Below are positions 1,973 to 58,095 of a stretch of DNA of 64,000 nucleotides, one piece after another. Made by a program: the position numbers and the translations under genes. The first letter of the stretch is position 1, and the number at the start of each line of letters is the position of its first letter. Source of the DNA: Methylobacterium sp. SyP6R (GTDB taxonomy: Bacteria; Pseudomonadota; Alphaproteobacteria; Rhizobiales; Beijerinckiaceae). Below the pieces are notes generated by a model. It worked only from the letters and a program-made list of their open reading frames with translations. It did not search any database and had not been told where the DNA came from. The DNA lies in NCBI RefSeq assembly GCF_019216885.1, contig NZ_JAAQRC020000001.1:5025501-5089500 (forward strand). The letters are read 5' to 3'.

Positions 1973-3013
1973 CTAAACCCGCCGCCCCGCAGCCACCAGG
2001 CACATGAGCTCGAACAGCACCTGCGCGGCGCATTGCGCCGTGTTGCTGGTCGGATCGTATTGCGGCGCCACCTCGACCACGTCGCCGCCGACGAAGTTCA
2101 GCCCAGCGAGCCCGCGCAGCAGTTCCAGCACCTCGCGGGGCGTGAGCCCGCCCATCTCCGGCGTGCCGGTGCCCGGGGCGAAGCCGGGATCGAGGCTGTC
2201 GACGTCGAAGGAGAGATAGGTCGGGCCGTCGCCCGCGACCTCGCGGGCCCGGGCGATCACGGCGGGAAGCCCGAGCTGCGGCACCTCCTCGGCGTGGATC
2301 ACGGTCATGCCGGAGACGTACGAGAACTCCCACAGGTACTCGGCGCCGCCGCGGATGCCGATCTGGATCGTGCGCGCCGGATCGAGCACGCCGTCGAGCA
2401 CCGCTTGGCGGAAGGGCCCGCCATGGTGGAACTTCGAGCCCTCGTAGACGCCGCCGGTGTCGCAATGGGCGTCGATGTGGATCATGCCCACTGGCCGGTC
2501 GGCACCGACCGCCCGCAAGGTGGCGCGGCTGATCGAGTGGTCGCCGCCCACCGCCAGCGGCACCACGCCGGCCTTCACCACGGTGGCGAAGAACGCCTCG
2601 ATGTCCTCGTGGCAGCTCTCGAGGGAGAAGCGGCTGCGGAACGGCACGTCGCCGATATCGGCCGCCTTCAGCTCCGCCGCCGGCGTCATCCGCAGCACGT
2701 GCTCGTAGGGGCCGATGCGCTCCACCGCCCGCACCGCCCGCGGCCCGTGGCGGGCGCCGGCCCGGTTGGTGACGCCGAGATCCATCGGCACGCCGATCAG
2801 CGCCACGTCGAGGCCGCCGAAATCGGGGAGCGCCGCGGCCTCGGGGCGGTAGGGCAGGCCGAGGAAGGTCGCGACATCGGCGAACGGCCATTTGCGCCGG
2901 TCGCTCTCGCTGAATTGCTGACGCGCCGCCTTGGCGAAATCCGGGTCGTCGATGTCGCCGCCGGTCGCGTCGAGATAGCGGGCGCGAAGGGCCGCGAGCT
3001 TGGCCTGATCCAT
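1973..3013 (-). CDS. Agmatinase/arginase-family ureohydrolase
   Basis: A 346-residue binuclear metal hydrolase that cleaves a guanidino compound to urea plus an amine. All six canonical metal ligands are present: His159 (GGDHS), Asp181, His183, Asp185 (DAHCD), Asp270 and Asp272 (SFDVDSLDP). The protein is about 40 residues longer than E. coli agmatinase because of an N-terminal extension ending in a KWPFADVATFLGLPY segment. That extension occurs in environmental ureohydrolases whose substrates range over agmatine, guanidinobutyrate and other guanidines, so agmatine is only one possibility. The ATG chosen (MDQAK) is the first after a proline/arginine-rich stretch that looks non-coding. The gene is convergent with the lactonase gene and has no polyamine gene beside it. 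Confidence 0.85.
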   Translation of the reverse strand: MDQAKLAALRARYLDATGGDIDDPDFAKAARQQFSESDRRKWPFADVATFLGLPYRPEAAALPDFGGLDVALIGVPMDLGVTNRAGARHGPRAVRAVERIGPYEHVLRMTPAAELKAADIGDVPFRSRFSLESCHEDIEAFFATVVKAGVVPLAVGGDHSISRATLRAVGADRPVGMIHIDAHCDTGGVYEGSKFHHGGPFRQAVLDGVLDPARTIQIGIRGGAEYLWEFSYVSGMTVIHAEEVPQLGLPAVIARAREVAGDGPTYLSFDVDSLDPGFAPGTGTPEMGGLTPREVLELLRGLAGLNFVGGDVVEVAPQYDPTSNTAQCAAQVLFELMCLVAAGRRV

Positions 3014-3249
3014 AGGTGCTCCGGTCGTGGGGCCCGCCAGGGCGCGCGGGCACGGCACTCGGGGGGTCGGCCTACGAGGGCCCCGGCGCGCCCGGCGTGC
3101 CCTCGGCCCGCGCCACCCGGCCGCGACAAGAGCGCAGGCCGGCCATGCTGGCAAGCCCGTTGTCCCTGCGGGTACCGGCGGGCCAGGACACGGGCATCAG
3201 GACACCGTCATCCGCTTATCCGCCGCCGAGATCGTGAAGGCCGCCATCG

Positions 3250-43675: not shown

Positions 43676-44677
43676 TCACGCCGTGCCGGCCACCAGGGCC
43701 GCGACGGCAGCGCGGTCCGGCAGGGCCTCGAACACGCCCTTGCGGCAGACCACGCAGGCACCGCAGGCGGCAGCCATGCGCAGGCTCTCGGGGAGCGGGC
43801 GGCCCTCGGCGAGACCGACCGCGAGCCCCGCCGTGAAGGCGTCGCCGGCCCCGAGCGTGTCGAGTGCCGTCACGGAGAAGGCCGGCTGGGCCAGGACGGG
43901 ATGGCCGATCCGGAAGGCGAGCGCGCCACCGGCCCCGAGGGTGATCACGACGAGGTCCGGCCCGCGGGCGAGGAGCGCCTCCGCGAGGCCGCCCCAGGCC
44001 TCCGGGCCCCCCTCGCCCGCCCCGCTCCCGCCATCGGGCACGGGCATCCCGAGGGCCGCGCCGAAGGCCGCCGCCTCGACGGCGTTGACGACCAGGATCG
44101 CGGCCTGCGCCAGAATCTCCGGCAACGGCACCCGGAACGGCGACGGGTTGAGCAGGGTGCGCACGCCCGCCGCGCGGGCGATCCGGAAGGTCTCCGCCAC
44201 CGCATCGTCACCGACCTCGAACTGCGCCAGGACGAGGGCGCTCCCGGCGATCCGCTCCGCCGCCGCCCGCACCTCCGCGGCCCCAAGCCGGGCATTGGCG
44301 CCCGGATGCACCGCGAGGCAGTTCTCGCCCGAGGCGTCGATGAAGCCGATGCCGGCCCCCGTCGGGCCGGCGAAACGGTGCAGCATCGCGGCGGGCAGGC
44401 CGGCACGGGCGAGGGCCGGCGCGGCGAGGGCCGCGAGCGGGTCGTCGCCGATCGCCAGGAGGCCGTCGACCGTGGCGCCGAGACGCCGTGCGCCGACCGC
44501 GAGGTTGAGGCCCTTGCCGCCCGGCTCGACCAGGAAAGCCTGTGCCCTCAGCGATTCGCCCGCTCGCGGCAGACGGTCAACCGTGGCAGAACAGGCCACC
44601 ACGAAGCTCCCGAGGACGAAGAGAGCCGGATCGGCCACCATGTCGACTCTCTCCCCGACGCTGATTTCGGCGCTCAT
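43676..44677 (-). CDS. PfkB-family sugar kinase (ribokinase-like)
   Basis: A 333-residue carbohydrate kinase. PfkB signatures: the GGKGLNLAVGARRLG motif near residue 55, LLNPSPFR, NAVEAAAFG and the C-terminal DTLGAGDAFTAGLAVGLAEG with the catalytic Asp. It most resembles ribokinase-type members, but nothing fixes the sugar. The ATG chosen (MSAEIS) gives a compact N-terminus; a start 51 bp upstream is possible. It is divergent from a GntR regulator at 65 bp, the likely regulator of this kinase. Confidence 0.87.
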   Translation of the reverse strand: MSAEISVGERVDMVADPALFVLGSFVVACSATVDRLPRAGESLRAQAFLVEPGGKGLNLAVGARRLGATVDGLLAIGDDPLAALAAPALARAGLPAAMLHRFAGPTGAGIGFIDASGENCLAVHPGANARLGAAEVRAAAERIAGSALVLAQFEVGDDAVAETFRIARAAGVRTLLNPSPFRVPLPEILAQAAILVVNAVEAAAFGAALGMPVPDGGSGAGEGGPEAWGGLAEALLARGPDLVVITLGAGGALAFRIGHPVLAQPAFSVTALDTLGAGDAFTAGLAVGLAEGRPLPESLRMAAACGACVVCRKGVFEALPDRAAVAALVAGTA

Positions 44678-44742
44678 GCCCCCTCCCCATCCCGTCGCCC
44701 GCGCCGTGCCGGCGCGCGGCCGTCGCATCGGCTGAGCCGCCG

Positions 44743-45522
44743 ATGCCCGAGCCCTCGTCCGGGCCCGGCCCGGGCCCCCCTGCCCTGACGAGCCTGGTGC
44801 GGCTGCGCCACGATACCGCGAAGCCGCTCTATCAGCAGCTGGAAGAGCAGCTGCGCGGGCTGATCGAGGACGGCACGGTGGCGGGCGGCACGACGCTGCC
44901 GGCCGAGCGGCCCTTCGCGGAGGCGTTGGGCGTGAGCCGCACCACGGTGCAGCGCTGCTACGATTCCTTACGCCGGCAGCACTACCTCACCGCCCATGGC
45001 CGGCACGGCTTCATCGTCGCGGCCGGGCGCACCCGGCTCAGCCCGGGCATGGACCGGCTCAAGGGCTTCACCGAGGAGATGCGGGAACTCGGCCGCGTGC
45101 CCTCGACGCGGATCGTCGATCGCCGCGTGGTCCAGGACCGCTCGATCGCCTCGCTGTTCGGCCTGCCCTCGACCGCCCCGTTCCTGAAGCTGGTCCGCAT
45201 CCGCTGCGGCGACGGCATGCCGCTGTCGCGGGAGGTGGCGTGGTACGACCTCACGGCGGTGCCGGCGCTGGCCGAGGGCGATCTCGACGGCTCGGTCTAC
45301 GCATTCCTGGGCGCGCACGGGGCGGCCCTGGTGCGCTGCCGCCAGACCATCGAGGCGGCGATGCCGGACGAGACGGAATGCGCGGTGTTCGGTTTCACGC
45401 AAGCCCTGCCCTGCCTGCTGATCAAGCGCCACTCCTATGCCCGGGACGACCGGATGATCGAGTATGTCGAGGGCCTGTTTCGCGGCGACGCCTACGCCTA
45501 CCGGCTCGACCTGAGGGCGTGA
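44743..45522 (+). CDS. GntR-family regulator with UTRA ligand domain
   Basis: A 259-residue HutC-type regulator. The winged helix is at ~25-95 (PLYQQLEEQLRGLIEDG, LPAERPFAEALGVSRTTVQRCYDSLRRQHYL), followed by a UTRA ligand domain at ~105-250 with FLKLVRIRCGDGMPLSREVAWYDL. Effectors of this class are often phosphosugars. It faces the PfkB kinase gene across 65 bp, so that kinase is the probable target. The last 25 bp overlap the convergent LuxR gene. Confidence 0.88.
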   Translation: MPEPSSGPGPGPPALTSLVRLRHDTAKPLYQQLEEQLRGLIEDGTVAGGTTLPAERPFAEALGVSRTTVQRCYDSLRRQHYLTAHGRHGFIVAAGRTRLSPGMDRLKGFTEEMRELGRVPSTRIVDRRVVQDRSIASLFGLPSTAPFLKLVRIRCGDGMPLSREVAWYDLTAVPALAEGDLDGSVYAFLGAHGAALVRCRQTIEAAMPDETECAVFGFTQALPCLLIKRHSYARDDRMIEYVEGLFRGDAYAYRLDLRA

Positions 45523-46193
45523 GCCCGAACCGCCGCCACCTCGGCACCGTAGGCCACCGGCAACTGCACCGCCGCCACCAGGGCGACCAGTTGGCTCTGC
45601 TGCCGGGTCCCGGTCTTGAGGAAGATGCGGGCGACGTGGGTGCGCGCCGTGGTGACGCTGATGCCGAGTTCCGCGGCGATCTCGGCGAGGCAGCCGCCAT
45701 GGGCCAGGCCTGCGCCGACCTGCGCCTCGGCCCGGGTGAGGCCGAACAGGGTACGCAGCTGCACCTCGATCTTCCCTTGAGCCCGCAGGAGCCGGGCCAC
45801 CACCACCGCCCGCCCCGGCGCCGCTTCGTCGTCCAGAGGCGAGACGCAGACCGAGACGCCCGGCTCGTCCGGGCCGCCGCCCTCGAGCTGCAGGAAGCCG
45901 ACCGCCTCCCCGGGCCGCCCGTCGCAGGCCGCCTGGATCAGGGCCTGGAGCCGCGAGCGGCCCTCCGCCTGGCGTGCTCCGAGGTGCCTGACGACGTGAT
46001 GCGCGGTTCCGTGATGCTTGGTGCCGTGACAGCCGCCTGTCGCGTGCTGGCCCGACAGGGCTCCGTCGGGCCGGTCGAGGAGGTCCGTCGCCTCCCGGTT
46101 GGCGTGGAGGATGTGCCCCTGCCGGTCGACCACCAGCACCGCGAGGGCGAGGGCGTCGAGGGCGGCGGCCGCCGCCGGCTGCCAGGCGGTCAT
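45498..46193 (-). CDS. PAS/LuxR-family transcriptional regulator
   Basis: 231 residues. The N-terminal half is PAS-like (ALDALALAVLVVDRQGHILHANREATDLL) with a His-rich patch CHGTKHHGTAHHVVRH that could bind metal. The C-terminal ~65 residues are a LuxR helix-turn-helix (FGLTRAEAQVGAGLAHGGCLAEIA, then LGISVTTARTHVARIFLKTGT). No receiver domain is present, so it is not a standard response regulator. The inner ATG is chosen since the extra ~50 residues of the longer form look unfolded; that form would start at 46343. Target unknown. Confidence 0.8.
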   Translation of the reverse strand: MTAWQPAAAAALDALALAVLVVDRQGHILHANREATDLLDRPDGALSGQHATGGCHGTKHHGTAHHVVRHLGARQAEGRSRLQALIQAACDGRPGEAVGFLQLEGGGPDEPGVSVCVSPLDDEAAPGRAVVVARLLRAQGKIEVQLRTLFGLTRAEAQVGAGLAHGGCLAEIAAELGISVTTARTHVARIFLKTGTRQQSQLVALVAAVQLPVAYGAEVAAVRAHALRSSR

Positions 46194-46860
46194 GCCGGCG
46201 GTCACGGTGCGGTGGTCCCGGTCACGCGGCTGCGGCGCCGCCCGTCCTCCACCCCACACCCACTGCACGCGTGCATCGTCGCCCCCCGGCAAGCCGTCGC
46301 GAACGAGCGGGTCTCGACCCGTTCGGGTCCATATAAGTACCAAAACCTCTGCGGCACAAGACTGTTCATCGCAGCCGCGGCGCAGTGATTAAATCAGACA
46401 TGATTGGTCTGATTGCGGTCAGATGCTTGCATCCGGCATCAATCGGAGCCCTGTGGTCGGGATTGGTATCATCCTTTCGGATGAGACGCGGGCCACCGAA
46501 TGATCGACCGCTTCGTCTCGGTGCCGGCGCCATGGTCGAGGCCGCCGTGCTGGCGATCCTCACCGTCGGCTCGGCAATCGATCGCGGCATCTTCGGAGAC
46601 GATCACCTGCAATCCAGGCAGTACGATTTCATTTCACGCCAGATAACAAATTGCCTGATCCGTGAATTTTTACAGCAATTGCTCGTTTCTGGAGTGCGTT
46701 CGCCTCATGAATACGGGATCGACCCCGCATCGTCTCCCCTGATCCGGGCAGCCAGGAATCCGGTATGTCGCGGAGCGTGTTCGACGCCCACGCCACATCC
46801 GCTGCACCGGCCGATCGAACCGGCTCCCGAGACGGGCCACCCGCCGTCCGGTCGACGCCG
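46194..46860. other. Gene-free region with a short palindrome
   Basis: No credible gene on either strand. The middle part (about 46380-46720) is poorer in G/C than its surroundings. A perfect 7-bp inverted repeat ATCAGAC / GTCTGAT with 7-bp spacing lies at 46393-46413 and could be an operator upstream of the LuxR gene. The remainder shows nothing recognisable. Confidence 0.4.
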
Positions 46861-47988
46861 TCAGGCGGGCGCGCTCGCCAGGCGCGGCGTCGCTCCCGCC
46901 CGGCGCGGGCGGCGCCAGATCAAGCGGCCGAGGGCCGTGCCGGCGCGGCGGCAGAACAGGGCGGCGGCGAGAAACCAGGCGAGGCCGAGCCAGAGGCCCT
47001 GCAGGATCGCCAGCAGGGCCGAGCCCAGCACCAGGGCACCGCGGCCGAGCAGCGCCAGGACTGCGCGGGTGCGCCCGCCCAGGCCCTCGGACAGGCGGGC
47101 GACGCGGCGCAGGTCGTCGGCATTCTCCGCCACGGCGAGGGCCTGGAGGGTGCCGCGGGCGCCGAGCCGCGCCTGGATCCGGGCCGATTGCTCCCCGACG
47201 CTGCGGATCTCGCGGAACGCGCCCGGCTTGAGAACCCCCTTCGCCCCCTGGCGCAGGGCAGCGATGTCGAGCCGGCCGGCGGCCGCGGTGGCAAGGCCCA
47301 AAGCCTCCCGGTCGATCGCGGCGCCGGCGCTGCGGGTGAGATGCGCGGCCAGCGGCCGGGACAGCTTGCCGGTGCGGGCGGCGAGCTTCAGGGTCGTGGT
47401 GCCGGCATGGACCGGCACGCTCGAGCCGAGGGACACGATGGTGGCGCCGGTCAGCGCCAGCCCGGCGGTGGCAAGCCCGAGGAGCAGCGGGTCGTAGGCC
47501 TCGCCGCGGGCGAGCCGCCCGCCCTCGCGCCACACATCGCGCAGATCGCCGTAGCCGACGAGGTCGCCCGCCACGGCGCCGGCGAGCCCGGCCATGCCGG
47601 CCCCCTCCCCGCTGACGAAACCGGTCGCCGCGTCGGTCAGCGCCCGGCGCGGCGCGGTCTCGGCGAGCGCCGCCACGGCCGCCCGCCGCTCGGGCGAGAC
47701 CGCCACGCCCCGCTCCTCGGCCAAGGCCAGGAAGCTGTGCGCCAGGTCGTCGTCGCCCGCCGCCACGGCCGCGTCGAGGCCGGCACCGATCCGCTCCGGA
47801 TCGGCGACCGAAGCCAGGCGCAGGGTCGCCAGCGCCGCCGGGTCGTCGGCGGCCTCGCGCAGGCGCCAGGCCTGCGCGCATTCCGGCAGCAGGACGGGCG
47901 CGGAGACCGCGACGCCAGCGCCGGCGAGCAGCATCAGCGCCCCGGCCGCGCGCCGGCGCCAGCGCGAATCCGGCACGGCGATCCGCAC
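46861..47988 (-). CDS. Hypothetical membrane protein downstream of the AlsS-like gene
   Basis: 375 residues, GTG start, unrecognised. One N-terminal helix (ALMLLAGAGVAVSAPVLL), a soluble Ala-rich helical region to ~165, a hydrophobic pair near 120-200 (AGMAGLAGAVAGDLVG, GLATAGLALTGATIVSLG) and a C-terminal helix with a basic tail (AILQGLWLGLAWFLAAALFCRR). Similar proteins occur as conserved hypotheticals in Methylobacterium. It starts 3 bp after the stop of the ThDP-enzyme gene and is almost certainly cotranscribed with it. Confidence 0.7.
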   Translation of the reverse strand: MRIAVPDSRWRRRAAGALMLLAGAGVAVSAPVLLPECAQAWRLREAADDPAALATLRLASVADPERIGAGLDAAVAAGDDDLAHSFLALAEERGVAVSPERRAAVAALAETAPRRALTDAATGFVSGEGAGMAGLAGAVAGDLVGYGDLRDVWREGGRLARGEAYDPLLLGLATAGLALTGATIVSLGSSVPVHAGTTTLKLAARTGKLSRPLAAHLTRSAGAAIDREALGLATAAAGRLDIAALRQGAKGVLKPGAFREIRSVGEQSARIQARLGARGTLQALAVAENADDLRRVARLSEGLGGRTRAVLALLGRGALVLGSALLAILQGLWLGLAWFLAAALFCRRAGTALGRLIWRRPRRAGATPRLASAPA

Positions 47989-47991
47989 CGC

Positions 47992-49647
47992 CTAGCCCGG
48001 CTCGACCTGCGGGGCATGGCCGCCGAGTTCGTCGACCAGCACCCGGGTGTTCTCGGAGTAGTCGATCGGCACAGCCACGAGGTGCACGCCGCCCGCCGCG
48101 AAGGCGGCCTCCAGGGTCGGCGCCAGCGCCTCGGCGGAGGTCACGCGATGGCCCTTGGCGCCGTAGGATTCGGCGTAGACGACGAAATCCGGGTTGCTGA
48201 AGGTCATGCCGTAATCGGGGAACTTGTCGACCGCCTGCTTCCAGCGGATCATGCCGTAGGCGCTATCGTCGAGCACCAGCACCACGAGGTCGAGCTTGAG
48301 GCGCACCGCCGTCTCGAGCTCCTGGCTGTTCATCATGAACCCGCCGTCGCCGCAGACCGCCAGGACCCGGCGCTCCGGATGGACGAGCTTGGCCATCATC
48401 GCCGAGGGCAGGCCCGCCCCCATCGTGGCGAGCGCGTTGTCGAGGAGCAGCGTGTTGGCGACGTGGGTGCGGTAGTTGCGGGCAAACCAGATCTTGTACA
48501 TGCCGTTGTCGAGGCAGACGATGCCGTCCTCCGGCATCACCGCCCGGACATCATGGACGAGGCGCTGCGGCGTCACCGGGAAGCGGTCCTCCTCGGCCCG
48601 GTCGTTGATGCGGGCGAGGATGTGCTGGCGCATCTCCAGGAGGGCGGGCTCCGGATCGAGCCGTCCGCCGAGCCGGTCGGCCAGCGCCGTGACGGTGGTG
48701 CCGATATCGCCCACCACCTCGGCATCCGGATGGAAGACCTGCTCGACGCTGGCCGAGACGTAGCCGACATGGATCACCCGCGGGCCGCCCGCGACCCGGC
48801 CCATCAGGAAGGGCGGCTTCTCGACGGTGTCGTGGCCGATCGAGATGATGAGGTCGGCGCTGTCGATCGCCTCGTGGACGTAGTCGCGCTCCGACAGGGC
48901 CGCGGTGCCCACGTAGAGGTTCGAGCCGCCGGTCACCGCGCCCTTGCCCATCTGGGTGTTGAAGAACGGAATCCGGGTGCGGCGCACGAAGTCGGAGAGC
49001 GGCTCGACCAGGCGCGGGCGGTTGCCGGCGGCGCCGATCATGATCAGCGGGCGGCGGGCCTGGAGGATCATCGCGGCGGCGCGCTCGATCGCCGCGGGGT
49101 TGGCCACCGGCCGGTCGATCGGGTGCGACGGCACCAGGGCGACGTCGGCCTCTTCCGCCGCGATGTCCTCCGGCAGTTCGAGGTGGACCGGGCCCGGCCG
49201 CTCCTCGGTGGCGACCCGGAAGGCGTCGCGCACGATGGTGGGGATCGAGGCGGCCGACACGATCTGGCGCGTCATCTTGGTGAGCGGGCGCATCGCCGCG
49301 ATCACGTCGACGATCTGGAACCGGGCCTGGCGGGCGCTCATGATCGGCTTCTGGCCGGTGAGCATCAGCATCGGCATCGCGCCGAGATGGGCGTAGGCCG
49401 CCCCCGTGGTGAAGTTGAGGGCGCCGGGGCCCAGCGTCGAGATGCACACGCCGGGCCGTCCGGTGAGGCGCCCATGGGTCGCCGCCATGAAGGCCGCCGC
49501 CTGCTCGTGGCGGGTCAGCACCAGCTCGATCTTCGACTGTCGCAGCGATTCGACGACGTCGAGATTCTCCTCGCCCGGGATGCCGAAGATCCGGTCCACG
49601 CCCTCGTTCTCGAGGGCGGCGACGAGCAGATCGGAACCTTTGGTCAT
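47992..49647 (-). CDS. Acetolactate synthase-like ThDP-dependent enzyme (AlsS type)
   Basis: A 551-residue thiamine-diphosphate enzyme of the acetolactate synthase family. Seen: FGIPGEENLD, catalytic Glu48 (RHEQAA), STLGPGALNFTTG, GQKPIMSARQARFQIVDV and the ThDP/Mg motif GDGGFMMNSQELETAVR. The C-terminal VPIDYSENTRVL resembles catabolic AlsS; no small regulatory subunit gene follows, which also points to a catabolic role (pyruvate to acetolactate, acetoin pathway). No acetolactate decarboxylase gene is nearby, so the pathway is uncertain. Confidence 0.85.
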   Translation of the reverse strand: MTKGSDLLVAALENEGVDRIFGIPGEENLDVVESLRQSKIELVLTRHEQAAAFMAATHGRLTGRPGVCISTLGPGALNFTTGAAYAHLGAMPMLMLTGQKPIMSARQARFQIVDVIAAMRPLTKMTRQIVSAASIPTIVRDAFRVATEERPGPVHLELPEDIAAEEADVALVPSHPIDRPVANPAAIERAAAMILQARRPLIMIGAAGNRPRLVEPLSDFVRRTRIPFFNTQMGKGAVTGGSNLYVGTAALSERDYVHEAIDSADLIISIGHDTVEKPPFLMGRVAGGPRVIHVGYVSASVEQVFHPDAEVVGDIGTTVTALADRLGGRLDPEPALLEMRQHILARINDRAEEDRFPVTPQRLVHDVRAVMPEDGIVCLDNGMYKIWFARNYRTHVANTLLLDNALATMGAGLPSAMMAKLVHPERRVLAVCGDGGFMMNSQELETAVRLKLDLVVLVLDDSAYGMIRWKQAVDKFPDYGMTFSNPDFVVYAESYGAKGHRVTSAEALAPTLEAAFAAGGVHLVAVPIDYSENTRVLVDELGGHAPQVEPG

Positions 49648-50314
49648 CGGGCGCTCCTCCGGGCGTGTCCGTCTCTTGAGTTAAGACCCCGGATGACTCG
49701 GCGCAACGGATCGGACGCCGCCGGGTCGGTCCGGGATCGGATCGCGGCATCCGGAAGCACAGGAGCGGGGGAATGCGGCCAACGGCCCCATCATCCCGTA
49801 CCCTCGGCAAGTCCGGTGCACGGACTGCCCCGATCGTCATCGCTGCGCCGGGACGAGATCGTCGTACTCTCCCGCCGTGACATCCGCAGCGTCTCGGCAG
49901 AAAGGCGCCACTCCAAATGAATAATATTATAAATTTTGTATATCGATAATTTACATTCGCAAATTTCAATTATAGATACACGTCAATATTTTAAATACTC
50001 CAGCCATGTATCAAGCGGCAACGATCGGTACCGAAGGGCCATCACGCTGTAGCGTCGCGTAAAAATCCTCCTCTTCCGTGCCATTTTATCGATCGCCGGA
50101 GACGTGGTGGCCTATCGTCAGAGAAACGATCCAGACAAAATAAGACAAAACTCGTGCGACGCCGGGGCCTCCCGGCATAACTTCGTCCTTCTGCGTCAGA
50201 TTTGCCGTCTCACCGTGAGGAACCGGGCGCGAGATGCTGTGTTGCCGTGCCGCACTGCAACGGCCCGATCCGAGCCGCCGCAATGGCCCTGTCCTTCGAG
50301 CAACGGACGATTTG
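49648..50314. promoter_or_regulatory. Long divergent intergenic region with an AT-rich patch before the rhodopsin gene
   Basis: No gene could be supported. Bases ~49915-50060 are strikingly AT-rich (runs such as AATATTATAAATTTTG and ATTTTAAATACTCC) in a very GC-rich genome. A GCCGGG / CCCGGC hairpin lies at about 50161-50176. The patch may hold promoters for the rhodopsin operon or the AlsS-like gene, or mark the edge of acquired DNA. Confidence 0.5.
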
Positions 50315-51073
50315 ATGTCACCTCAATTCTGGCTCTGGCTCGGCTTCGCCGGCATGAGCGTCGGCGCTGCCCTCATCCTGTTCATCGGCAAGAGCCGCAC
50401 GCCGGCCGAGGAAACGGACACCATCATCCACGGCCTCGTGCCGATCATCGCCGCCTGCTCGTATCTCGCGATGGCGACCGGGCAGGGCAGCATCGTCCTG
50501 CCGGCCGGGCCGGATGCCGGCACCGCTACCCGGGCGTTCTACTTCGCCCGCTACATCGACTGGTCGTTCACCACGCCGCTGCTGCTGCTCGGCCTGGCGA
50601 ACACCGCGATGCACAGCGGCATGCGCCGCCGGGCGGTCGTCGGAGGGATGATCGGCTCCGACCTGATCATGATCGTCACCGCGCTGGTCTTCGGCCTGAG
50701 TCAGGTGGCGTGGCTGAAATGGACCTGGTTCGCGATCTCCTGCGGCGCCTTCCTGGCGGTATATTACGGCATCTTCGTGCAGCTGCGCCAAGAGAACGCC
50801 CGCGAGCGGGACGATACCCGCGCCGACTTCCTGCGCAACGCCGTGTTCCTGTCGGTGATCTGGCTCGCCTATCCGGTCGTGCTCCTGTTCGGCGACGACG
50901 GGCTCGGTCTGCTCGGCCCGGCGCTCGGCCTCGGCATCATCGCGGTGCTCGATCTCGTGGCGAAGGTCGTCTACGGCGTGATGGCGACGATGCAGACCGC
51001 CAAGCGGGTCGAGCGCGACCTCGCCGAGGGCAAGGCGGCACCGGTGCGCCCCCACCTCGCGGCGGCCGAGTAG
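50315..51073 (+). CDS. Microbial (type-1) rhodopsin, DTG-motif, predicted proton pump
   Basis: A 252-residue seven-helix retinal protein. Helix C reads ARYIDWSFTTPLLLLG: Arg79, Asp82, Thr86 and Gly93 align with bacteriorhodopsin Arg82, Asp85 (proton acceptor), Thr89 and Asp96 (proton donor). Helix G has Asp213 and the retinal-binding Lys217 (LDLVAKVVYG). Tyr50 and WLAYPVV in helix F are conserved too. The acceptor is kept and the cytoplasmic donor is Gly, a 'DTG' pump. Leu90, at the position that tunes colour, predicts green absorption. The ATG at MSPQFW is preferred on length. The blh gene follows after 6 bp, so the operon makes its own chromophore. Confidence 0.95.
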   Translation: MSPQFWLWLGFAGMSVGAALILFIGKSRTPAEETDTIIHGLVPIIAACSYLAMATGQGSIVLPAGPDAGTATRAFYFARYIDWSFTTPLLLLGLANTAMHSGMRRRAVVGGMIGSDLIMIVTALVFGLSQVAWLKWTWFAISCGAFLAVYYGIFVQLRQENARERDDTRADFLRNAVFLSVIWLAYPVVLLFGDDGLGLLGPALGLGIIAVLDLVAKVVYGVMATMQTAKRVERDLAEGKAAPVRPHLAAAE

Positions 51074-51079
51074 GCGCCG

Positions 51080-52048
51080 ATGATGCGCCGGCCTTCCCCG
51101 ATCCCGGCGCTGGCCGGCGCGCCGATGCCGCAGATCCTGCGGCCCGGCCTCCTTCGGGGAGCGGCGTCCTGCCTGCTCCCCGCGGCCGCCCTGCTTCTCG
51201 CTGCGACCGCCCTGCTGCCGCGGCAGGCGGGCTGGCTCGCCGTCCTCGCCCTGGTGATCGGTCTCGGCGTGCCGCACGGCGCCCTCGACGGCGAGGTGGC
51301 GAGACCCTTCCTGCGCCCGCGCTTCGGCCGGGCCTGGTTCGCCGTCTTCGCCGCCCCCTATCTCGCGCTCACCGCGGCCGTCCTGATCGCGTGGAGGCTG
51401 GCCCCCGGGACCACCCTCGCGGGGTTCCTCGGCCTGTCGGTCCTGCATTTCGGCCGGGAGGATGCCGGGCCGGGTCGTCCGATCGAGGCCCTCGTCAGGG
51501 GCGGCCTGCCGGTCGCGCTACCGGCCCTGGCGAGCCCCGACGAGACCGCCCGCATCTTCGCGGTGGTGACCCACACCGCGATGCCGGTGCCGCCGACATG
51601 GTGGACGGCATCCGCCTGGGCCTGGCTCGGCCTCGCCCTCGCCTGGCTCATCGCGGGCCGGCCTGCCCCGCGCGTGCTCGCGGAGGTCGCCGCCTTGGGC
51701 CTCGCCTTCCTGGTCCTGCCGCCTCTCAGCGCCTTCGGGCTCTACTTCGTCTGCCTGCACGCGCCGCGGCACATGCGGGCGCTGGCCGACGACCCCGTCC
51801 GGGCGCCTGCGGTGGACGGAATGGGCCGGGCGGTCCTGCTGGCGCTGCCGGTCTTCGGGCTCACGCTGGTCGTCGGCCTTCTGCTGTGGCCGACCTATCC
51901 GCAGGGACACGGCGTCGAGCGGTTGCTCGCACTGACGCTCCAGCTCCTCGCCGCCCTGACCCTGCCGCACCTGCTGCTGGACCGGTGGGTCGAGTGGTCG
52001 GCGATGCGGGCCGATGCGCGGTCCCGTTCCCACCGCGGTGGGCGGTGA
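51080..52048 (+). CDS. blh: Brp/Blh-family beta-carotene 15,15'-dioxygenase
   Basis: A 322-residue polytopic membrane enzyme that splits beta-carotene into two retinal molecules. The four iron-ligand histidines of the family are seen with the expected spacing: His66 (GVPHGALDGE), His123 (LHFGRED), His227 and His231 (LHAPRHM); His297 (LPHLLLDRW) is also conserved. Six or more hydrophobic helices are present. It starts 6 bp after the rhodopsin stop, giving a two-gene operon. Carotenoid synthesis genes (crtE, crtB, crtI, crtY) are not in the window and must lie elsewhere for retinal to be made. Confidence 0.92.
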   Translation: MMRRPSPIPALAGAPMPQILRPGLLRGAASCLLPAAALLLAATALLPRQAGWLAVLALVIGLGVPHGALDGEVARPFLRPRFGRAWFAVFAAPYLALTAAVLIAWRLAPGTTLAGFLGLSVLHFGREDAGPGRPIEALVRGGLPVALPALASPDETARIFAVVTHTAMPVPPTWWTASAWAWLGLALAWLIAGRPAPRVLAEVAALGLAFLVLPPLSAFGLYFVCLHAPRHMRALADDPVRAPAVDGMGRAVLLALPVFGLTLVVGLLLWPTYPQGHGVERLLALTLQLLAALTLPHLLLDRWVEWSAMRADARSRSHRGGR

Positions 52049-52057
52049 GCCACCGCC

Positions 52058-52666
52058 TCACTCCTGCTGGCGCGGGCGCCGCGGCGGGCGGGCCGCCATC
52101 GCCGCCGAGGCGAGGGCGTCGGCGGGGGCGGTCTTGCCGCGCACCGGGGCGCGAGCCTTCTCGGAGGCCGGGCGGGCCGGCGGCGCGGGCATCTCGGCGG
52201 GCTCCGGGGCCGCCGCGGGCGTCTCGTGGGCCGCCTTCTCCGGGACCGCCTTGGCGGCGGGCTTCGCCTTGGCAGGCTCCTTGGCCGCCCCCTTGGCCGG
52301 ACCCTTCGCGGACTTGGGCTTCGCCGCCGGCGCCGCGACCGGGTCGAGGTCGGCGGCGAGCGCCATCAGGTGGCGGCGATGCGCCACCGCCGGTCCGTCC
52401 TTGAGGTCCGGGTGGTGCTTGTCGAGGCGGGTCACCAGGGCCTTGACCTCGGCATCCTTCAGCCCGTCGACGATCAGCGCCAGGGGCTGGGGGCCCAGCG
52501 CCTCGCGCACCGCCCGCAGGCCCGCCAGATCCAGGGTCTTGGCCTTCAGCTGCTTCGTCACCAGGGCGTGGGCGGCCTTGGTGACGTCGCTGCGGATCGC
52601 CGGGAAGGCCTCCGGCGCCTCCGCGATCGCGCACAGGACCGCGAGGCCGTCGATCTCAAGCGCCAT
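52058..52666 (-). CDS. Hypothetical partner of orphan ParA
   Basis: 202 residues: a folded helical N-terminal domain (~1-108, with AIRSDVTKAAHALVTKQLKAKTLDL and ALIVDGLKDAEVKALVTRLDKHHP) and a long Lys/Ala/Pro-rich disordered tail (KGPAKGAAKEPAKAKPAAKAVPEK). It overlaps the ParA gene by 11 bp and so is translated with it. Positively charged low-complexity tails are typical of partners that stimulate ParA-type ATPases, but no family was recognised. Confidence 0.65.
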   Translation of the reverse strand: MALEIDGLAVLCAIAEAPEAFPAIRSDVTKAAHALVTKQLKAKTLDLAGLRAVREALGPQPLALIVDGLKDAEVKALVTRLDKHHPDLKDGPAVAHRRHLMALAADLDPVAAPAAKPKSAKGPAKGAAKEPAKAKPAAKAVPEKAAHETPAAAPEPAEMPAPPARPASEKARAPVRGKTAPADALASAAMAARPPRRPRQQE

Positions 52667-53570
52667 CCAGGGCCTCCTTCAGCTCGGCCACCACTGGGGT
52701 GATCACCTCGCCGATCAGGTCGCGGCTGGCGTCACGATACTTGTTGGCGAAGGTCTGATACTCCAGGGTGAGCGCGTTCGCCAGGGCCGCCGATTGCGGC
52801 ACGCGGGTCCTGAACAGTCGAAACCGCGCGCCTTCCGCAGCGGCACTCTCCTGGAGCGTGGCGTAGGTGGTCGCCTGCTGCTTGGTGTTCTGCCAGCGGG
52901 TGATCAGCACGTGCGGGGGTCGTTTGGGCGCCAGCATGCTCTCCGAGGCGCTGCCGACGCCCCAGATCGTCTCGTAGAACGCCTTGAGGCCGTAGGTGGA
53001 CAGGAAGTCCGAGATGCAGGCGACCACCACGAGGTCGCTCGCCCGGATCGCCACCTCGGTCATCGGCGAGATGCCGGGGGCGCAGTCGAACAGCACGTAG
53101 TCGTACTGGTCGCGCAAGGGCGCGAAGTCTTCCTGGAACAGCTTCCACAGGTGGCCCTCGATGGCGTGCATCGAGTATTTGCGCTTGGTGAGCGCGTAGA
53201 TGATCTCGCGCTCGACGATGCGCAAGGAGGGGCCGGAGGCCAGCAGCGAGATCGGCAGCGGCTCGCCGAGATGCGTGGTGCTCGAGACGTAGTCGCGGAT
53301 GAAGTCCGGCAGGGCGGCCTTGTCGCGGTCGACGATGCGCAGGCCCAGGTAATAGTCGAGGGTGCGGCCCCCGGTGATCATCTCGGCCAGGATCCCGTCG
53401 CCGGCAAAGCACACCGAGGCGCTGGCCTGGGGGTCGAGGTCGATCACCAGCACCGAGGCGCCGCCGGCGGCCAGCGCATCGGCCAGCATCACCACGCTGG
53501 TGGTCTTGCCGACGCCGCCCTTCATGTTGGCGACAGCAACGAGCTTGCCGGAAACGGGCTTGCCGGTCAT
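52656..53570 (-). CDS. Orphan ParA/MinD-type ATPase
   Basis: A 304-residue Walker-type ATPase. The deviant Walker A KGGVGKTT (Lys17, Lys22) is followed by the switch DLDPQASASVCF and the Walker B VLFDCAPGISPMTEVAI. It is not beside a parB, parS-like cluster, minC or flagellar genes, so it is an orphan. Such ParAs commonly position large cargo (protein complexes, granules, compartments) on the nucleoid with a small partner encoded next to them; the overlapping downstream gene fits that role. Cargo unknown. Confidence 0.88.
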   Translation of the reverse strand: MTGKPVSGKLVAVANMKGGVGKTTSVVMLADALAAGGASVLVIDLDPQASASVCFAGDGILAEMITGGRTLDYYLGLRIVDRDKAALPDFIRDYVSSTTHLGEPLPISLLASGPSLRIVEREIIYALTKRKYSMHAIEGHLWKLFQEDFAPLRDQYDYVLFDCAPGISPMTEVAIRASDLVVVACISDFLSTYGLKAFYETIWGVGSASESMLAPKRPPHVLITRWQNTKQQATTYATLQESAAAEGARFRLFRTRVPQSAALANALTLEYQTFANKYRDASRDLIGEVITPVVAELKEALDGA

Positions 53571-53725
53571 GTGCGGATTCCCGGCCGCTCGGCGGGGGCG
53601 CGGGTCCGCAGCGTCGTCGCGGCGGGCGGGCGGAACGGGGCCATCGGGGCTCTCTTCACGGCGGGTCCCCTTTCCACCACCGGGGCTTGCGGCAAGTCAA
53701 GGCCGGTTGCAGGGCGCTCCCTGCT

Positions 53726-54532
53726 TCAGCCGCCGCAGCGGGTATAGGTGGCCGAGCCGCGCTCGCTCGCCCAGGTCAGGCGGCTGCCCGCCACGGTCAG
53801 GCGCACCCGCGAGGTCCAGTGGCGGCCGGCGCTGCTGCACGAGGCGGTCATGGTCCAGCTCCGCCCCTCGCGCCGCGTGTTCCGGAACCGGCACACAGTC
53901 TTGCCGGCCCGGGCGCTGCCCGGCCGGATCACCGCCGGCAGCAGGCCGTGGCGGGCGGAGCGTCGGCTGGAGCAGGCAGCAAGGCCCGGTCCCCACACGC
54001 CCGCATAGGCCGGTGGCACGTCCTCGTCGGCGTCCCCCATCGCCTCGACCGCGCGGGGAGCCTCCTTGACGGGCCGCTCGCGCTCCGCCCGGCCCTCCTC
54101 GCGCGGCTCGGGCTTCGGCCGCGGCGTGGCGGTCCGGACGGGCGGGGCCGGCGTCCTGTCCTCCGGATCGTCCTCGGGCGCGAGGTCGCGGGGGGCGAGG
54201 TCGTGGGCGGGGGCGGGCTTGACCGGGCCGAAGCCGGACTCGTCCGGGCCCGCATCCCGCAGCGGCGCCGCGCCATCGCGGGCGCCGACCCGGCCCGGCG
54301 GCTCGCGCCAGGTGCTCGCCGGCTGGCCCGCCTCCGGCGGCACCGCATCCGGCGGCGGACGGCGGCGATAGATGGGAATCGTCGAGCGGTAAGGCTTCGA
54401 CAGGACCGGCGGGTCGGCGGGGATCTCGAGGTCCGACTGCGCGACGGCCCGGCCCGGCCCGGCCATGCTGGCCGCGCCGGCCAGCACGAACAGGCCGGCC
54501 GCGAAAAGGCCCGCGCGGTGAAACGCCCTCAT
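53726..54532 (-). CDS. Secreted protein with Pro-rich linker and C-terminal beta domain
   Basis: 268 residues: signal peptide (~1-33, AGLFAAGLFVLAGAASMAG, then AVAQS), a long Pro/Arg/Glu-rich linker to ~175, and a C-terminal beta-rich domain of ~90 residues with paired cysteines (GVWGPGLAACSS, KTVCRFRN, TASCSSAGRHWTSRVRL, SATYTRC). Similar C-terminal domains occur in small periplasmic alphaproteobacterial proteins of unknown role. The inner ATG (MRAFHRAG) directly before the signal peptide is chosen over one 39 bp upstream. Confidence 0.68.
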   Translation of the reverse strand: MRAFHRAGLFAAGLFVLAGAASMAGPGRAVAQSDLEIPADPPVLSKPYRSTIPIYRRRPPPDAVPPEAGQPASTWREPPGRVGARDGAAPLRDAGPDESGFGPVKPAPAHDLAPRDLAPEDDPEDRTPAPPVRTATPRPKPEPREEGRAERERPVKEAPRAVEAMGDADEDVPPAYAGVWGPGLAACSSRRSARHGLLPAVIRPGSARAGKTVCRFRNTRREGRSWTMTASCSSAGRHWTSRVRLTVAGSRLTWASERGSATYTRCGG

Positions 54533-54676
54533 GATGCCCCCAAGGGTCCCCCGACGGATGCCGGCGGTCAAGTCTTAGAGCGCGCGCGAACCTCATGGAC
54601 ATGGGCTTCGGGACCGAGCGCGCAGCGAAATCGTCGGTGTCGCCCGGCGGACACTGTCCCGAGGGGCAAACTTGCC

Positions 54677-54780
54677 TAGAGCGCTTCACGATCGCGCTGC
54701 CATCGCGAAGCTCTCTAGGTCTTTGATTTTGCGGCATTTTCTGCGACGGACCGGCATCCGCTCCGTCGGAAAATGCTCTA
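54677..54780 (-). repeat. ~105-bp palindromic repeat, copy T1 (inverted)
   Basis: On the minus strand it starts TAGAGCATTTTCCGACGGAG, continues AGAAAATGCCGCAAAATC and ends GTGAAGCGCTCTA. It matches T2 at 55433-55538 in the opposite orientation. Its end supplies the TAG stop of the 2OG oxygenase gene. Confidence 0.85.
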
Positions 54781-55410
54781 GCGGCCGAAGATGCCCTTCA
54801 GGAACTGCGCCGTGCGGTTGCGCTTGCGCTTGCGCTCCAGCTCGGCCGCGTCCTTCACCCAGGCGACCTGCACCACCCGGCGCTCGCCCTCGAACGGCCG
54901 GTGGCCGTGCCAGGAATTGTCGGCGCGCAGGAAGGCGAACATCGTTCCCATGGTCGGCGGCACCTCGACCGCGTAGGGCTCGAACCGCTCGCCGTCGTAG
55001 AGCACCCGCAGGCGCCCGGCCTCCGGCGCGTCCCACTCGTCGTTCATGTAGACGAGCAGCGTCATCACCTTCGAGGGGCCGTCGGTGTGGATCGCGCCGT
55101 ATTTCGGCTGCGAGCGGCGCATGATCGTGGTGAGCCGCGGGCAGGAGACGAGGTCGATGCCGAACTTCTCGCTCAGCACCCGCGAGAAGGCGTCGCTCTC
55201 CAGTTCCTCGATCAGGTCCTTGAAGCGGCCGGCGAGCTGCACCTCGTCCACCGTGAGGTAGCCGGGCTTGGCGATGGCCGGGAAGTCGCGCTTCAGCTCA
55301 GGCACCGCGTCCGGGCGCAGGACCTGCCGGCCGAGGAAGTACTGGTAGGGGTCGTGCGCCACGGGGGCGGCGCGCACGGCGTCGACATCGAGGATCGAGA
55401 GGGACGACAT
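54778..55410 (-). CDS. 2-oxoglutarate/Fe(II)-dependent oxygenase
   Basis: A 210-residue jelly-roll dioxygenase. The iron triad is His108 and Asp110 (AIHTDGPSK) with a distal His in SWHGHRPF (168 or 170), followed by Arg for 2-oxoglutarate binding (GERRVVQV). YMNDEWDAPEAGRLRVLYDG is typical of the 2OG-FeII_Oxy_3 group. A basic tail ends the protein (RKRKRNR). The gene is exactly bracketed by T1 and T2, two copies of one palindromic repeat in opposite orientation. Substrate unknown. A longer upstream reading is antisense to the ABC transporter and was not used. Confidence 0.85.
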   Translation of the reverse strand: MSSLSILDVDAVRAAPVAHDPYQYFLGRQVLRPDAVPELKRDFPAIAKPGYLTVDEVQLAGRFKDLIEELESDAFSRVLSEKFGIDLVSCPRLTTIMRRSQPKYGAIHTDGPSKVMTLLVYMNDEWDAPEAGRLRVLYDGERFEPYAVEVPPTMGTMFAFLRADNSWHGHRPFEGERRVVQVAWVKDAAELERKRKRNRTAQFLKGIFGR

Positions 55411-55956
55411 GGGAGCAATCGCACTCGTCAGGCTGGAGCATTCTCCGGCGAAGCGAATACCGGTTCGTCGGAGAAGACGCTGCAAGATCGAAGACCCGGA
55501 GCCGCCCCCGATCGCAACGCGATCGCGCGCGGCTCCAGGCGTGGGGCACGCGGAACACCGGCGGACCATCGGGGCGGATTGCGGCAGCGGCGGGGCACCG
55601 CGGCCCTTGGCTACGCGCCCCAGGTCTGGCCCCGTGCGTTCACGTCTCGGCGAGCGCGCGGGGGCGCGCACCGATGTTCGACGCCTTGCCGCGAGGGGAC
55701 CGGGCTTGACGCGTGAACGGGGTTTAACTTGCAACGGCAACGGCGCCATGGTCCTGCCACGGGGCTGACCCATGGCGGGTCGGACGGCCGCGGGCTTCGG
55801 ATGCCCTCGCGAGAGTCCCGCCGCGATGACGGCGACCGGGAGCGTCGCGAGAGGCACGCGAGGCCAGGCGCTCCCGACCGCCACCGAATCACCGGCCCGC
55901 CGCCTTGAGAGGCGGGCCCGCATGAGGCCCGCCCGCCGGGCGGCCCGGAGACCGCG
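55411..55956. other. Intergenic region with repeat T2
   Basis: No supported gene. The first part is repeat T2. A CTTGAC hexamer at 55705-55710 may be part of a promoter for the downstream ABC transporter, but no matching -10 element was clear. Otherwise GC-rich, unrecognised. Confidence 0.35.
55433..55538 (+). repeat. ~105-bp palindromic repeat, copy T2
   Basis: Begins CTGGAGCATTCTCCGGCGAAG, contains ACCGGTTCGTCGGAGAAGACG and ends CGCGCGGCTCCAG, with GGAGCCG / CGGCTCC and GATCGC / GCGATC pairing inside. Homologous to T1 and T3. Confidence 0.85.
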
Positions 55957-57747
55957 ATGCACGGCTTGAAGCAGGCCCTCCTGCAGATCTGGCGCCTGGC
56001 CTATCCCTACTACACGACCCGCGAGGTCACGACGGTGCGGCTGTGGCCGCTGCCGGCGGTGAAGATGCAGGAACGCTGGGTCGCGCTGACCATGGCGGCC
56101 CTGGTGATCGGCATCGAGTTCGCTCAGGTCGCGATCAACGTCCGCCTGTCGTACTTCAACCGCGACTGGTTCAACGCCATCCAGAGCAAGGATGCGGCGG
56201 CGTTCTGGTCGCTCCTGTTCTCGGTGTTCTGCCTCTGGGCCGCGGTCTACGTGGCGAGCGCCATCATCCAGTACGTGATCCAGTCGTTCCTGCGCATCCG
56301 CTGGCGGGCCTGGATGACGCGGCACTACGTCGACCGCTGGCTCGGCAACGACACCCATTACCGCATGGGCTTCTCCGGTGCCCAGGCCGACAACCCCGAC
56401 CAGCGCATCGCCGACGACATCGACCAGTTCACCCAGACGACGCAGTCGCTGACCATCAGCTTCCTGTCGGCGGTCTCGAACCTGATCTCGTTCTCGGTGA
56501 TCCTGTGGAACATCTCGGCCGCCTTCACGGTGCCGGGGACCGACTGGCACGTGCCGGGCTTCCTGGTCTGGGGCGCGCTGATCTATTCGGCGCTCGTCAC
56601 CTGGATCACCCACCGCATCGGCAAGGCGCTGGTCGGGCTCAACTTCGAGCAGCAGCGCCGCGAGGCGGATTTCCGCTTCTCGCTCGCCCGCCTGCGCGAA
56701 TACGGCGAGCAGGTGGCGCTCCTCGGCGGCTCCCGGGCCGAGAAGGTCTCGCTCGGTGACCGCTTCTCCGCCCTGATCCAGAATTTCTATGCCATCGTCG
56801 ACCGCCGCAAGAAGCTCGCCGCCTTCACGGTCAGCTACCAGCAGGTCAACGTGGTGATCCCCTACATCCTGGTGGCGCCGTACTACTTTGCCGGCCAGAT
56901 CCCGCTCGGGGTGATGACGCAGACCGCCGGCGCGTTCTCGCGGGTCGAGAGCACGATGTCGTTCTTCATCACGTTCTACGTGACTTTGGCCGACTACAAG
57001 GCGCAGGTCGATCGGCTCACCACCTTCGACGCGGCGATGAACCGGGCCGACGCGATGGCGGCGGGCAGCGCGCTGGCGGTCGGGCCGGCGAGCGGGGCGG
57101 GCCTCCACCTCAAGGGCCTCGCCCTCGACCTGCCGGACGGGCGGCGCATCGCCGAGGCGCCCGCCCTCTCGTTCCGGCCGGGCGAGACGACGCTGCTCAC
57201 CGGCCCCTCGGGCTCGGGCAAGTCGACGCTGTTTCGCGCCATCGCGGGCATCTGGCCCTTCGGCGAGGGCTCGGTCACGACGCCGGAGGGCGCGCGCCTG
57301 ATGCTGCTGCCGCAGCGGCCCTACCTGCCGATGGGGACCTTGCGCGCCGCCGCCACCTATCCGGAGCCCGCCGGGCGCCACGACGACGCGGCGGTCCGGG
57401 CGGCCCTCGAGGCGGCGCGGCTGCCGCATCTGGCGGATCACCTCGACGAGGAGGCGCCCTGGGCGCAGGCCCTGTCGCTCGGCGAGCAGCAGCGCCTCGC
57501 CGTCGCCCGGGCGCTGCTCGCCAGGCCCGACTGGCTCTTCCTCGACGAGGCCACCGCCGCCCTCGACGAGCCGACCGAGGCCGCGCTCTACCGCATGCTG
57601 CGCACGGAGCTTCCGGACACCACCATCGTGTCGATCGGCCACCGCTCGACGCTGACCGCCTTCCACGACCGGCGGATCGACATGACCCGCCGCGAGGACG
57701 GCCGCTTCGTGCCGACCGACCTCGCCGCGGCGGTGCCAGCAGAGTAG
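55957..57747 (+). CDS. ABC transporter, permease-ATPase fusion (BclA/YddA, SbmA-related)
   Basis: A 596-residue half-transporter. The N-terminal ~330 residues are an SbmA/BacA-like membrane domain (RLSYFNRDWFNAIQ, RWRAWMTRHYVDRWL, NPDQRIADDIDQFT, LREYGEQVALLGGSRAEK); the C-terminal ~210 residues are an ATPase with Walker [10 protein letters not shown], signature LSLGEQQRLAVARALL and Walker B WLFLDEATAALDE. This is the ABCD-like YddA/BclA group; rhizobial BclA imports antimicrobial peptides and affects very-long-chain fatty acids in the envelope. The role here is inferred from family only. It stands as a single gene. Confidence 0.88.
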   Translation: MHGLKQALLQIWRLAYPYYTTREVTTVRLWPLPAVKMQERWVALTMAALVIGIEFAQVAINVRLSYFNRDWFNAIQSKDAAAFWSLLFSVFCLWAAVYVASAIIQYVIQSFLRIRWRAWMTRHYVDRWLGNDTHYRMGFSGAQADNPDQRIADDIDQFTQTTQSLTISFLSAVSNLISFSVILWNISAAFTVPGTDWHVPGFLVWGALIYSALVTWITHRIGKALVGLNFEQQRREADFRFSLARLREYGEQVALLGGSRAEKVSLGDRFSALIQNFYAIVDRRKKLAAFTVSYQQVNVVIPYILVAPYYFAGQIPLGVMTQTAGAFSRVESTMSFFITFYVTLADYKAQVDRLTTFDAAMNRADAMAAGSALAVGPASGAGLHLKGLALDLPDGRRIAEAPALSFRPGETTLLTGPSGSGKSTLFRAIAGIWPFGEGSVTTPEGARLMLLPQRPYLPMGTLRAAATYPEPAGRHDDAAVRAALEAARLPHLADHLDEEAPWAQALSLGEQQRLAVARALLARPDWLFLDEATAALDEPTEAALYRMLRTELPDTTIVSIGHRSTLTAFHDRRIDMTRREDGRFVPTDLAAAVPAE

Positions 57748-57823
57748 TCGGAGCGAGGAGCCGGAGACGGGGCGACGAAGCGCCTTGACGCGCCGCGTCG
57801 CCCCGCCTAGAAGCCGGCTCACA
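57748..57823. promoter_or_regulatory. Leader region of the tRNA-Val pair
   Basis: Short GC-rich gap that must hold the tRNA promoter. CTTGAC at 57784-57789, then 17 bp, then CTAGAA at 57807-57812, which is a reasonable promoter ending ~11 bp before the tRNA 5' end. Confidence 0.5.
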
Positions 57824-57898
57824 GGGCGCGTAGCTCAGCGGGAGAGCATTCGCTTCACACGCGAAGGGTCACAGGTTCAATCCCTGTCGCGCCCACCA
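57824..57898 (+). tRNA. tRNA-Val (CAC), copy 1
   Basis: 75 nt with encoded CCA. Acceptor GGGCGCG / CGCGCCC, D arm GCTC/GAGC, anticodon arm TTCGC-TTCACAC-GCGAA with anticodon CAC, T arm ACAGG-TTCAATC-CCTGT. It reads the valine codon GTG. Confidence 0.97.
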
Positions 57899-58020
57899 CC
57901 CTTTTCGAGAGTTGATGGCTTCGAGCCTGGCGTTCCGCCGCCACGCGATTTGCCATCGAGACAGGTTCGGTCCGCGATGCGGCTCTTACGCCGCATTACC
58001 CCCGCATGGGACCGTTCGTC

Positions 58021-58095
58021 GGGCGCGTAGCTCAGCGGGAGAGCATTCGCTTCACACGCGAAGGGTCACAGGTTCAATCCCTGTCGCGCCCACCA
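58021..58095 (+). tRNA. tRNA-Val (CAC), copy 2
   Basis: Identical over all 75 nt, including CCA, to the copy 122 bp upstream. The spacer between them is unrelated outside the genes, so this is an older tandem duplication kept identical by conversion or selection. Confidence 0.97.

Follow-up and report, generated by a model that had tools for sequence, protein, structure and literature searches.

A rhodopsin–blh cassette of Methylobacterium sp. SyP6R encoding a predicted MpR-like DTG pump and its putative retinal-forming partner

Results

Organization of the cassette

The stretch of DNA analysed here, called the window throughout, spans 64,000 nucleotides of the genome of Methylobacterium sp. 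SyP6R and contains, on the plus strand, a rhodopsin gene (50315..51073; 252 aa) followed by a gene for a Brp/Blh-family β-carotene 15,15′-dioxygenase (blh, 51080..52048; 322 aa). The rhodopsin stop codon, TAG, ends at 51073, and the 6-bp gap before blh (51074..51079), already recorded in the initial annotation, suggests that the two genes form a single transcript. The mechanically called reading frame of the rhodopsin begins at 50234, 27 codons before the ATG at 50315; because relatives align from this ATG and an indel lies immediately upstream of it in the alignment, 50315 is the better start. The ∼125 bp 5′ of the rhodopsin gene (50189..50314, plus strand) are conserved in the three closest relatives by blastn and alignment and are therefore part of the cassette, likely as a leader or promoter. 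A promoter scan detected no sigma-70-like site on the plus strand upstream of the rhodopsin, and the promoter and terminator scans returned one site each, both on the minus strand. In its full extent the conserved cassette covers 50189..52013 (plus strand), a blastn block of 86–87% identity.

Directly downstream of blh, genes for a ParA-type ATPase and for a 202-aa protein without a Pfam match occupy 52058-53570 on the minus strand. PADLOC, run on four neighbouring proteins, gave weak matches for the ParA-type protein and nothing else, and a search of a viral fold library yielded nothing at E 0.001. An Rfam scan found two tRNAs and no other RNA; two tRNA-Val genes (57824-57898 and 58021-58095), both with anticodon cac, lie ∼120 bp apart.

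Residues and constraint in the two proteins

The rhodopsin was identified by its Pfam match, its residues, its position in a tree and an AlphaFold2 model (mean pLDDT 93.9) that displays seven transmembrane-length helices. The match to PF01036 (155.8 bits, E 1.6e-45; curated cut-off 24.6) is the only one found in the genome, and the family matched none of 14 control genomes. Residues Arg79, Asp82, Thr86, Gly93, Asp213 and Lys217 all occur where the initial annotation had placed them; His39, Glu32, Glu33 and Asp35 are present as well. Lys217, the Schiff-base lysine of helix 7, is present in 55 of 55 aligned sequences, an alignment of nearest relatives composed of the window protein, 49 of the 120 matches listed and five loci. 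By the PF01036 match and the helix-7 lysine, the predicted protein is a type 1 (microbial) rhodopsin. The Asn, Asp and Gln of helix C that mark NDQ sodium pumps are absent, their place being taken in the window protein by Asp82, Thr86 and Gly93. Estimates of dN/dS are ∼0.06–0.12 against the three closest relatives (L029, L172 and L002), a range indicative of strong purifying selection, and 0.16–0.32 against five more distant ones.

The partner protein scores 152.2 bits with PF15461 and 180.7 bits with TIGR03753 (cut-off 95.25). Its four expected histidines were confirmed, with His66, His123 and His227 conserved in 47 of 47 aligned Blh proteins (the window, 45 of 66 loci and L156) and His231 in 44, the exceptions being L044, L047 and L053; a fifth histidine beyond the four usually named, His297, is found in 46 of the 47. 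The spacing of the four (57/104/4) resembles the 57/110/4 of characterised marine Blh. A search of solved structures gave no match for Blh at E 0.001. On the TIGR03753 cut-off and the conserved histidines, the window protein is classed as a Brp/Blh dioxygenase, with the predicted activity of converting β-carotene to retinal. The dN/dS of blh is ∼0.29–0.44 against seven relatives, pointing to purifying selection on a gene less constrained than that of the rhodopsin.

Probable placement in the MpR-like clade

A DTG-type three-letter motif alone does not settle the function of a rhodopsin (PMC10154332). The same source distinguishes two DTG/DTS clades: a SpaR-like clade with a His32/His33 pair, and an MpR-like clade, most members of which carry Glu32, Glu33 and Asp35. 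It describes SpaR as pumping protons at acidic pH, PspR and PaR as reported proton pumps, and MpR of Methylobacterium populi (Cho et al. 2021) as a reported Li+/Na+ pump (PMC10154332). In MpR numbering, Glu32, Glu33 and Asp35 of the window protein match the marks of the MpR-like clade and lie on the cytoplasmic side; the SpaR His32/His33 pair aligns with Thr34/Asp35 and is absent from the window protein. The three acidic marks occur in 29 of 66 loci, 27 of which combine them with DTG and His39, the remaining two being L028 (DTA) and L045 (DTS). All of Glu32, Glu33, Asp35, Asp82, Thr86, Gly93 and His39 are shared by these 27 (L002-L027 and L029).

A rhodopsin tree was built with 54 rows; 45 of 66 loci were represented, among them 17 from the set of 27 that carry all the marks. 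The window protein falls among 19 rows that make up a Methylobacterium DTG group (support 100/100), apart from a five-row SpaR/PspR group (support 100/100). Long-branch warnings were raised for 8xx8, L044, L058, 6lm0, 4jr8 and others, and within the two groups used here for L053 and 7w74. The apparent rhodopsin–Blh fusions of L032 and L033 (577 and 599 aa) were rejected as such, a stop lying after the rhodopsin in each; their tree rows were cut at that point. By its residue marks, and by the numbering quoted in PMC10154332, the predicted protein probably belongs to the MpR-like clade; neither its clade nor the aligned positions of the His32/His33 pair would make it a SpaR-like mirror proteorhodopsin.

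MpR, likened here by its description, comes from the same genus and has the DTG motif and Glu32/Glu33/Asp35 in the same numbering. The mirror proteorhodopsins (SpaR, 8ANQ; PspR; PaR) resemble the window protein in having no carboxylate at the donor position and a histidine at the position of bacteriorhodopsin Thr46, although SpaR is only 35% identical, falls in a separate clade and has the histidine pair that the window protein lacks. The best structural match, tied with others, is 8XX8 of Salinarimonas soli (46% identity), which differs in having Thr in place of the acceptor Asp and Gln in place of His39. It is titled Glycilhalorhodopsin and is presumably a chloride pump; a literature search found no paper on it. 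Since this best match has Thr at the acceptor position, the choice of ion has shifted within the wider group.

A candidate proton donor

Gly93 stands where bacteriorhodopsin has Asp96, and on this ground the initial annotation had called the pump donor-less. This description is not supported: His39, at the position of bacteriorhodopsin Thr46, aligns with SpaR His37, which has been proposed as the internal donor, alone or within a donor group whose pK was estimated at 5.8 (PMC10154332). All 55 nearest-relative sequences have His39, as do 49 of 68 rows in a wider alignment that includes the window protein twice. By analogy with SpaR, His39 is a candidate donor. Eleven DTG rows of actinobacterial and other lineages have Ser at this position (L046, L048-L052, L054, L055, L057, L059 and L065), which shows that a DTG motif can occur without the candidate donor histidine. 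A pH-dependent photocycle, as the annotation had expected, is still a fair prediction by analogy; because acids replace the His32/His33 pair near the donor, the pH optimum of SpaR cannot be carried over to the window protein.

Evidence for mobility of the cassette

Comparison of the window with its closest relatives suggests that the two genes travel together. With L172 and L029 the window shares only 50189-52013 (with L002, from 50191). When window positions 44000-58000 outside the cassette were compared with 34 other loci, flanks masked, no match was found at E 1e-20; at E 1e-5, pieces of 31–118 bp are shared with L020 and L028 only. The 34 loci comprise 32 of the 66 together with two plasmid stretches, with flanks of at most 6–8 kb per side except for one 40-kb plasmid used whole. 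Flanking sequence longer than 1.5 kb is shared in 13 of 595 locus pairs.

Five plasmid records carry a relative of the window rhodopsin. A 96.4% identical rhodopsin resides on a 1.57-Mb plasmid of M. aquaticum, and the 40-kb plasmid (L171; NZ_CP099615.1, 40,208 bp), which belongs to another Methylobacterium, isolated from a leaf of Arabidopsis, has both genes, with an IS91-family transposase adjoining blh. This plasmid also encodes chemotaxis proteins, one of them ∼1.3 kb from the rhodopsin, and a photolyase-type protein. In the window itself, G+C falls to 0.54 at 49750-50249, with values of 0.59–0.61 in two overlapping windows and 0.66–0.79 farther off; the dip, just upstream of the cassette, may mark an insertion edge. 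From these comparisons we infer a mobile unit made up of rhodopsin, blh and the short leader. With only these elements in the unit, the carotenoid precursor has to be provided either by the host cell or by an external source.

Two light systems across the genus

The initial annotation regarded a second light system beside bacteriochlorophyll as notable. The genome that holds the rhodopsin–blh pair with its DTG motif does encode photosynthetic reaction-centre proteins, as had been anticipated, PF00124 matching it twice (once at G000:C1:937506), but the emphasis on a second system was overstated. Reaction-centre proteins are encoded in 107 of 111 genomes of the genus and rhodopsins in 39; a reaction-centre gene is present in 38 of these 39, the exception (G078) being a genome that is 70% complete. 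Rhodopsin and bacteriochlorophyll in one genome are thus common in Methylobacterium. Dual phototrophy has also been published for Sphingomonas AAP5 and Tardiphaga, which resemble the window genome in this respect and differ from it in that their rhodopsin is a xanthorhodopsin rather than an MpR-like DTG protein (PMC7762795, PMC7701988).

The 39 genomes with blh over the cut-off are the very set that carries rhodopsin; G013, which has no rhodopsin, contains a blh match below the cut-off. In G034, G057, G067 and G080 (in the last as fragments), rhodopsin is matched at least twice and blh no less often.

Carotenoid genes and the search for a lycopene cyclase

The claim that the two proteins could together make and use retinal is weakened by the search for a lycopene cyclase. 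Besides blh, the window genome encodes a polyprenyl synthase (PF00348, 155.7 bits), with crtD, in the neighbourhood of its reaction-centre genes (L140). Another locus (L137), ∼0.73 Mb away from the rhodopsin, holds crtB-type and crtI-family genes (SQS_PSY 229.3 bits; crtI_fam TIGR02734 587.7 versus 238.1). The crtB equivalog models fall below their cut-offs at this locus (best 377 versus 500). Genes of the crtE, crtB and crtI types thus appear to be present, with the product of the crtB-type gene assigned by prediction.

No lycopene cyclase of the CrtY, CrtL or CrtYcd type was found. CrtY (TIGR01789) is over its cut-off in none of the 111 genomes, with 16 of up to 22 candidates scored per genome (16 of 17 in the window genome); within the same scope, 16 genomes have sub-threshold matches, none of which extends past position 142. 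TIGR01790, applied to the window genome, gave no match over its cut-off and none past the first 56 positions (93 of 93 candidates scored), and PF18916 gave none there. With PF05834, all 94 candidates of the window genome were scored and no single match spans over 145 of the 380 model positions; BchP gives the longest. PF05834 matches 31 times there, seven of these matches exceeding the cut-off by themselves or together with neighbours, and nearly all lie within the first 30–50 positions only. A profile built from five CrtY sequences, of which two are divergent, found nothing in the window genome (17 of 77 candidates scored); across the 111 genomes (17 of up to 92 scored in each) it matched 32, always confined to the first 145 positions of 389.

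In the 14 control genomes, matches over the cut-off numbered none for TIGR01789, one for TIGR01790 and one for PF18916; because TIGR01789 found nothing in them, a set of 20 genomes, chosen through the loci, provides the working positive control for CrtY. In this set, CrtY was detected in Rosenbergiella (472 bits), Aureimonas (456) and Sphingomonas rubra (447), and two weak matches, of 67 and 59 bits, came from the Rhodospirillales MAG to which L034 belongs; the other 16 genomes, including all 12 Methylobacteriaceae, had no CrtY over the cut-off. The 67-bit match is a divergent CrtY (L156; TIGR01790 86 bits, below cut-off). On two contigs of that MAG (L156:546-3542 and L160:1486-3542), a divergent CrtY has a phytoene-synthase-family gene on one side and a second blh on the other.

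Several candidates were considered and set aside. Genus-wide, with 15 of up to 93 PF05834 candidates scored per genome, weak full-length matches include L102, which is BchP (TIGR02023 495.2 versus 343.3) and adjoins a PUCC protein, and L109, which by reading also looks like BchP beside PUCC. In the window genome, L175 is BchP (491.9 bits), L174 an FAD protein resembling flavin monooxygenases, L176 of the salicylyl-CoA hydroxylase type (below the cut-off of that model) and L150 a Pyr_redox_2 protein. The FAD-binding protein of the 40-kb plasmid matches PF03441 (119.7 bits) and is thereby a photolyase-type protein. Searches with five CrtY proteins came up empty both for that plasmid, where the best E was 0.51, and for the 16.8 kb surrounding the M. 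aquaticum rhodopsin; L154 served as positive control.

In the window genome, then, a recognised lycopene cyclase of the CrtY, CrtL or CrtYcd type was not found. The initial annotation had held that absence of the β-carotene pathway would count against a working system; half of that absence is observed, the crtE, crtB and crtI types being present and the three cyclase types missing. The pigments that a review names for the genus are C30 acids (PMC9598406). Among the papers listed in our searches, none treats retinal supply in Methylobacterium, judging by titles and the openings of abstracts. We tentatively propose, at somewhat less than even likelihood, that Methylobacterium, perhaps with Acetobacteraceae whose rhodopsins are related (three genomes tested), either possesses a cyclase unlike CrtY, CrtL and CrtYcd or uses plant-derived carotenoid or retinal.

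Discussion

The cassette is best explained as an MpR-like DTG rhodopsin, probably an outward light-driven cation pump, encoded together with the Blh that would supply its retinal. In such a system Lys217 would bind retinal, with Asp82 and Asp213 as counterions alongside Arg79, and light would drive a cation outward. Blh would cleave a carotenoid with a β ring to retinal for the rhodopsin; the carotenoid itself would be formed by a lycopene cyclase outside the CrtY, CrtL and CrtYcd types or would reach the cell from outside. The pump is probably a further member of a published clade, accompanied by a known partner enzyme.

By analogy with MpR, the chances that the window pump moves Na+ or Li+ may be put at about even. 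Four relatives that do not belong to the group of the window protein have a Na_Ca_ex family gene (PF01699) immediately after blh: L037 (7752-8852; 94.8 bits) and L038, which have a second type of Methylobacterium rhodopsin, L039, an Acetobacteraceae MAG, and the more distant L044 of Aureimonas (2198-3310; 92.3 bits). The other loci compared, L062 with its second-type rhodopsin among them, gave no match, some of these loci ending at contig ends, and no such neighbour stands beside the pair in the window. The Na_Ca_ex family includes proton-coupled members; for this reason, and because the window has no such gene, these neighbours give a weak, though independent, hint of cation coupling.

An outward pump that moves H+ alone, as SpaR and PspR do, at acidic pH and with His39 as donor, is a serious contender that we hold to be rather less than an even bet; the Li+/Na+ report for MpR would then reflect an artefact or a side activity. 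The alignments show an Asp82/Thr86/His39 core common to the window, SpaR and PspR, with Gly93 common to the window and PspR, and the NDQ residues are missing. PspR and PaR are themselves reported to pump protons (PMC10154332). Against this, the window protein lies outside the SpaR clade with full support, and the carboxylates Glu32, Glu33 and Asp35 take the place of the histidine pair of that clade. MpR, to our knowledge the only MpR-like member assayed, was reported to pump Li+ and Na+. A sensory or regulatory rhodopsin without net transport is very improbable: the pump counterion residues are retained and no transducer domain occurs in the eight neighbouring window proteins scanned. In its favour stand the silent rhodopsin gene of Sphingomonas AAP5, for which a role outside bioenergetics has been suggested (PMC7762795), and, for the 40-kb plasmid, the chemotaxis-protein gene close to its rhodopsin.

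The failure to find a CrtY, CrtL or CrtYcd cyclase places an endogenous source of retinal in doubt. The rhodopsin might normally be an apoprotein, or might work only when β-carotene or retinal is taken up, as on a leaf. The missing cyclase types would fit such a state, as would a mobile unit restricted to rhodopsin and blh and a 40-kb plasmid devoid of any CrtY-like stretch. We nevertheless consider it unlikely: blh is under purifying selection and always accompanies rhodopsin, which argues that substrate is available, and a cyclase of the CruA type or another kind could provide it.

The MpR-like clade is the group on which the claim that a DTG rhodopsin can pump sodium or lithium has to be judged. 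The missing lycopene cyclase turns the source of retinal for Methylobacterium rhodopsins into a testable question. If the proposal of an unrecognised cyclase or plant-derived supply is true, the cassette, spreading as two genes that leave the precursor pathway behind, would represent a light system dependent on the carotenoids of its host cell or of its plant.
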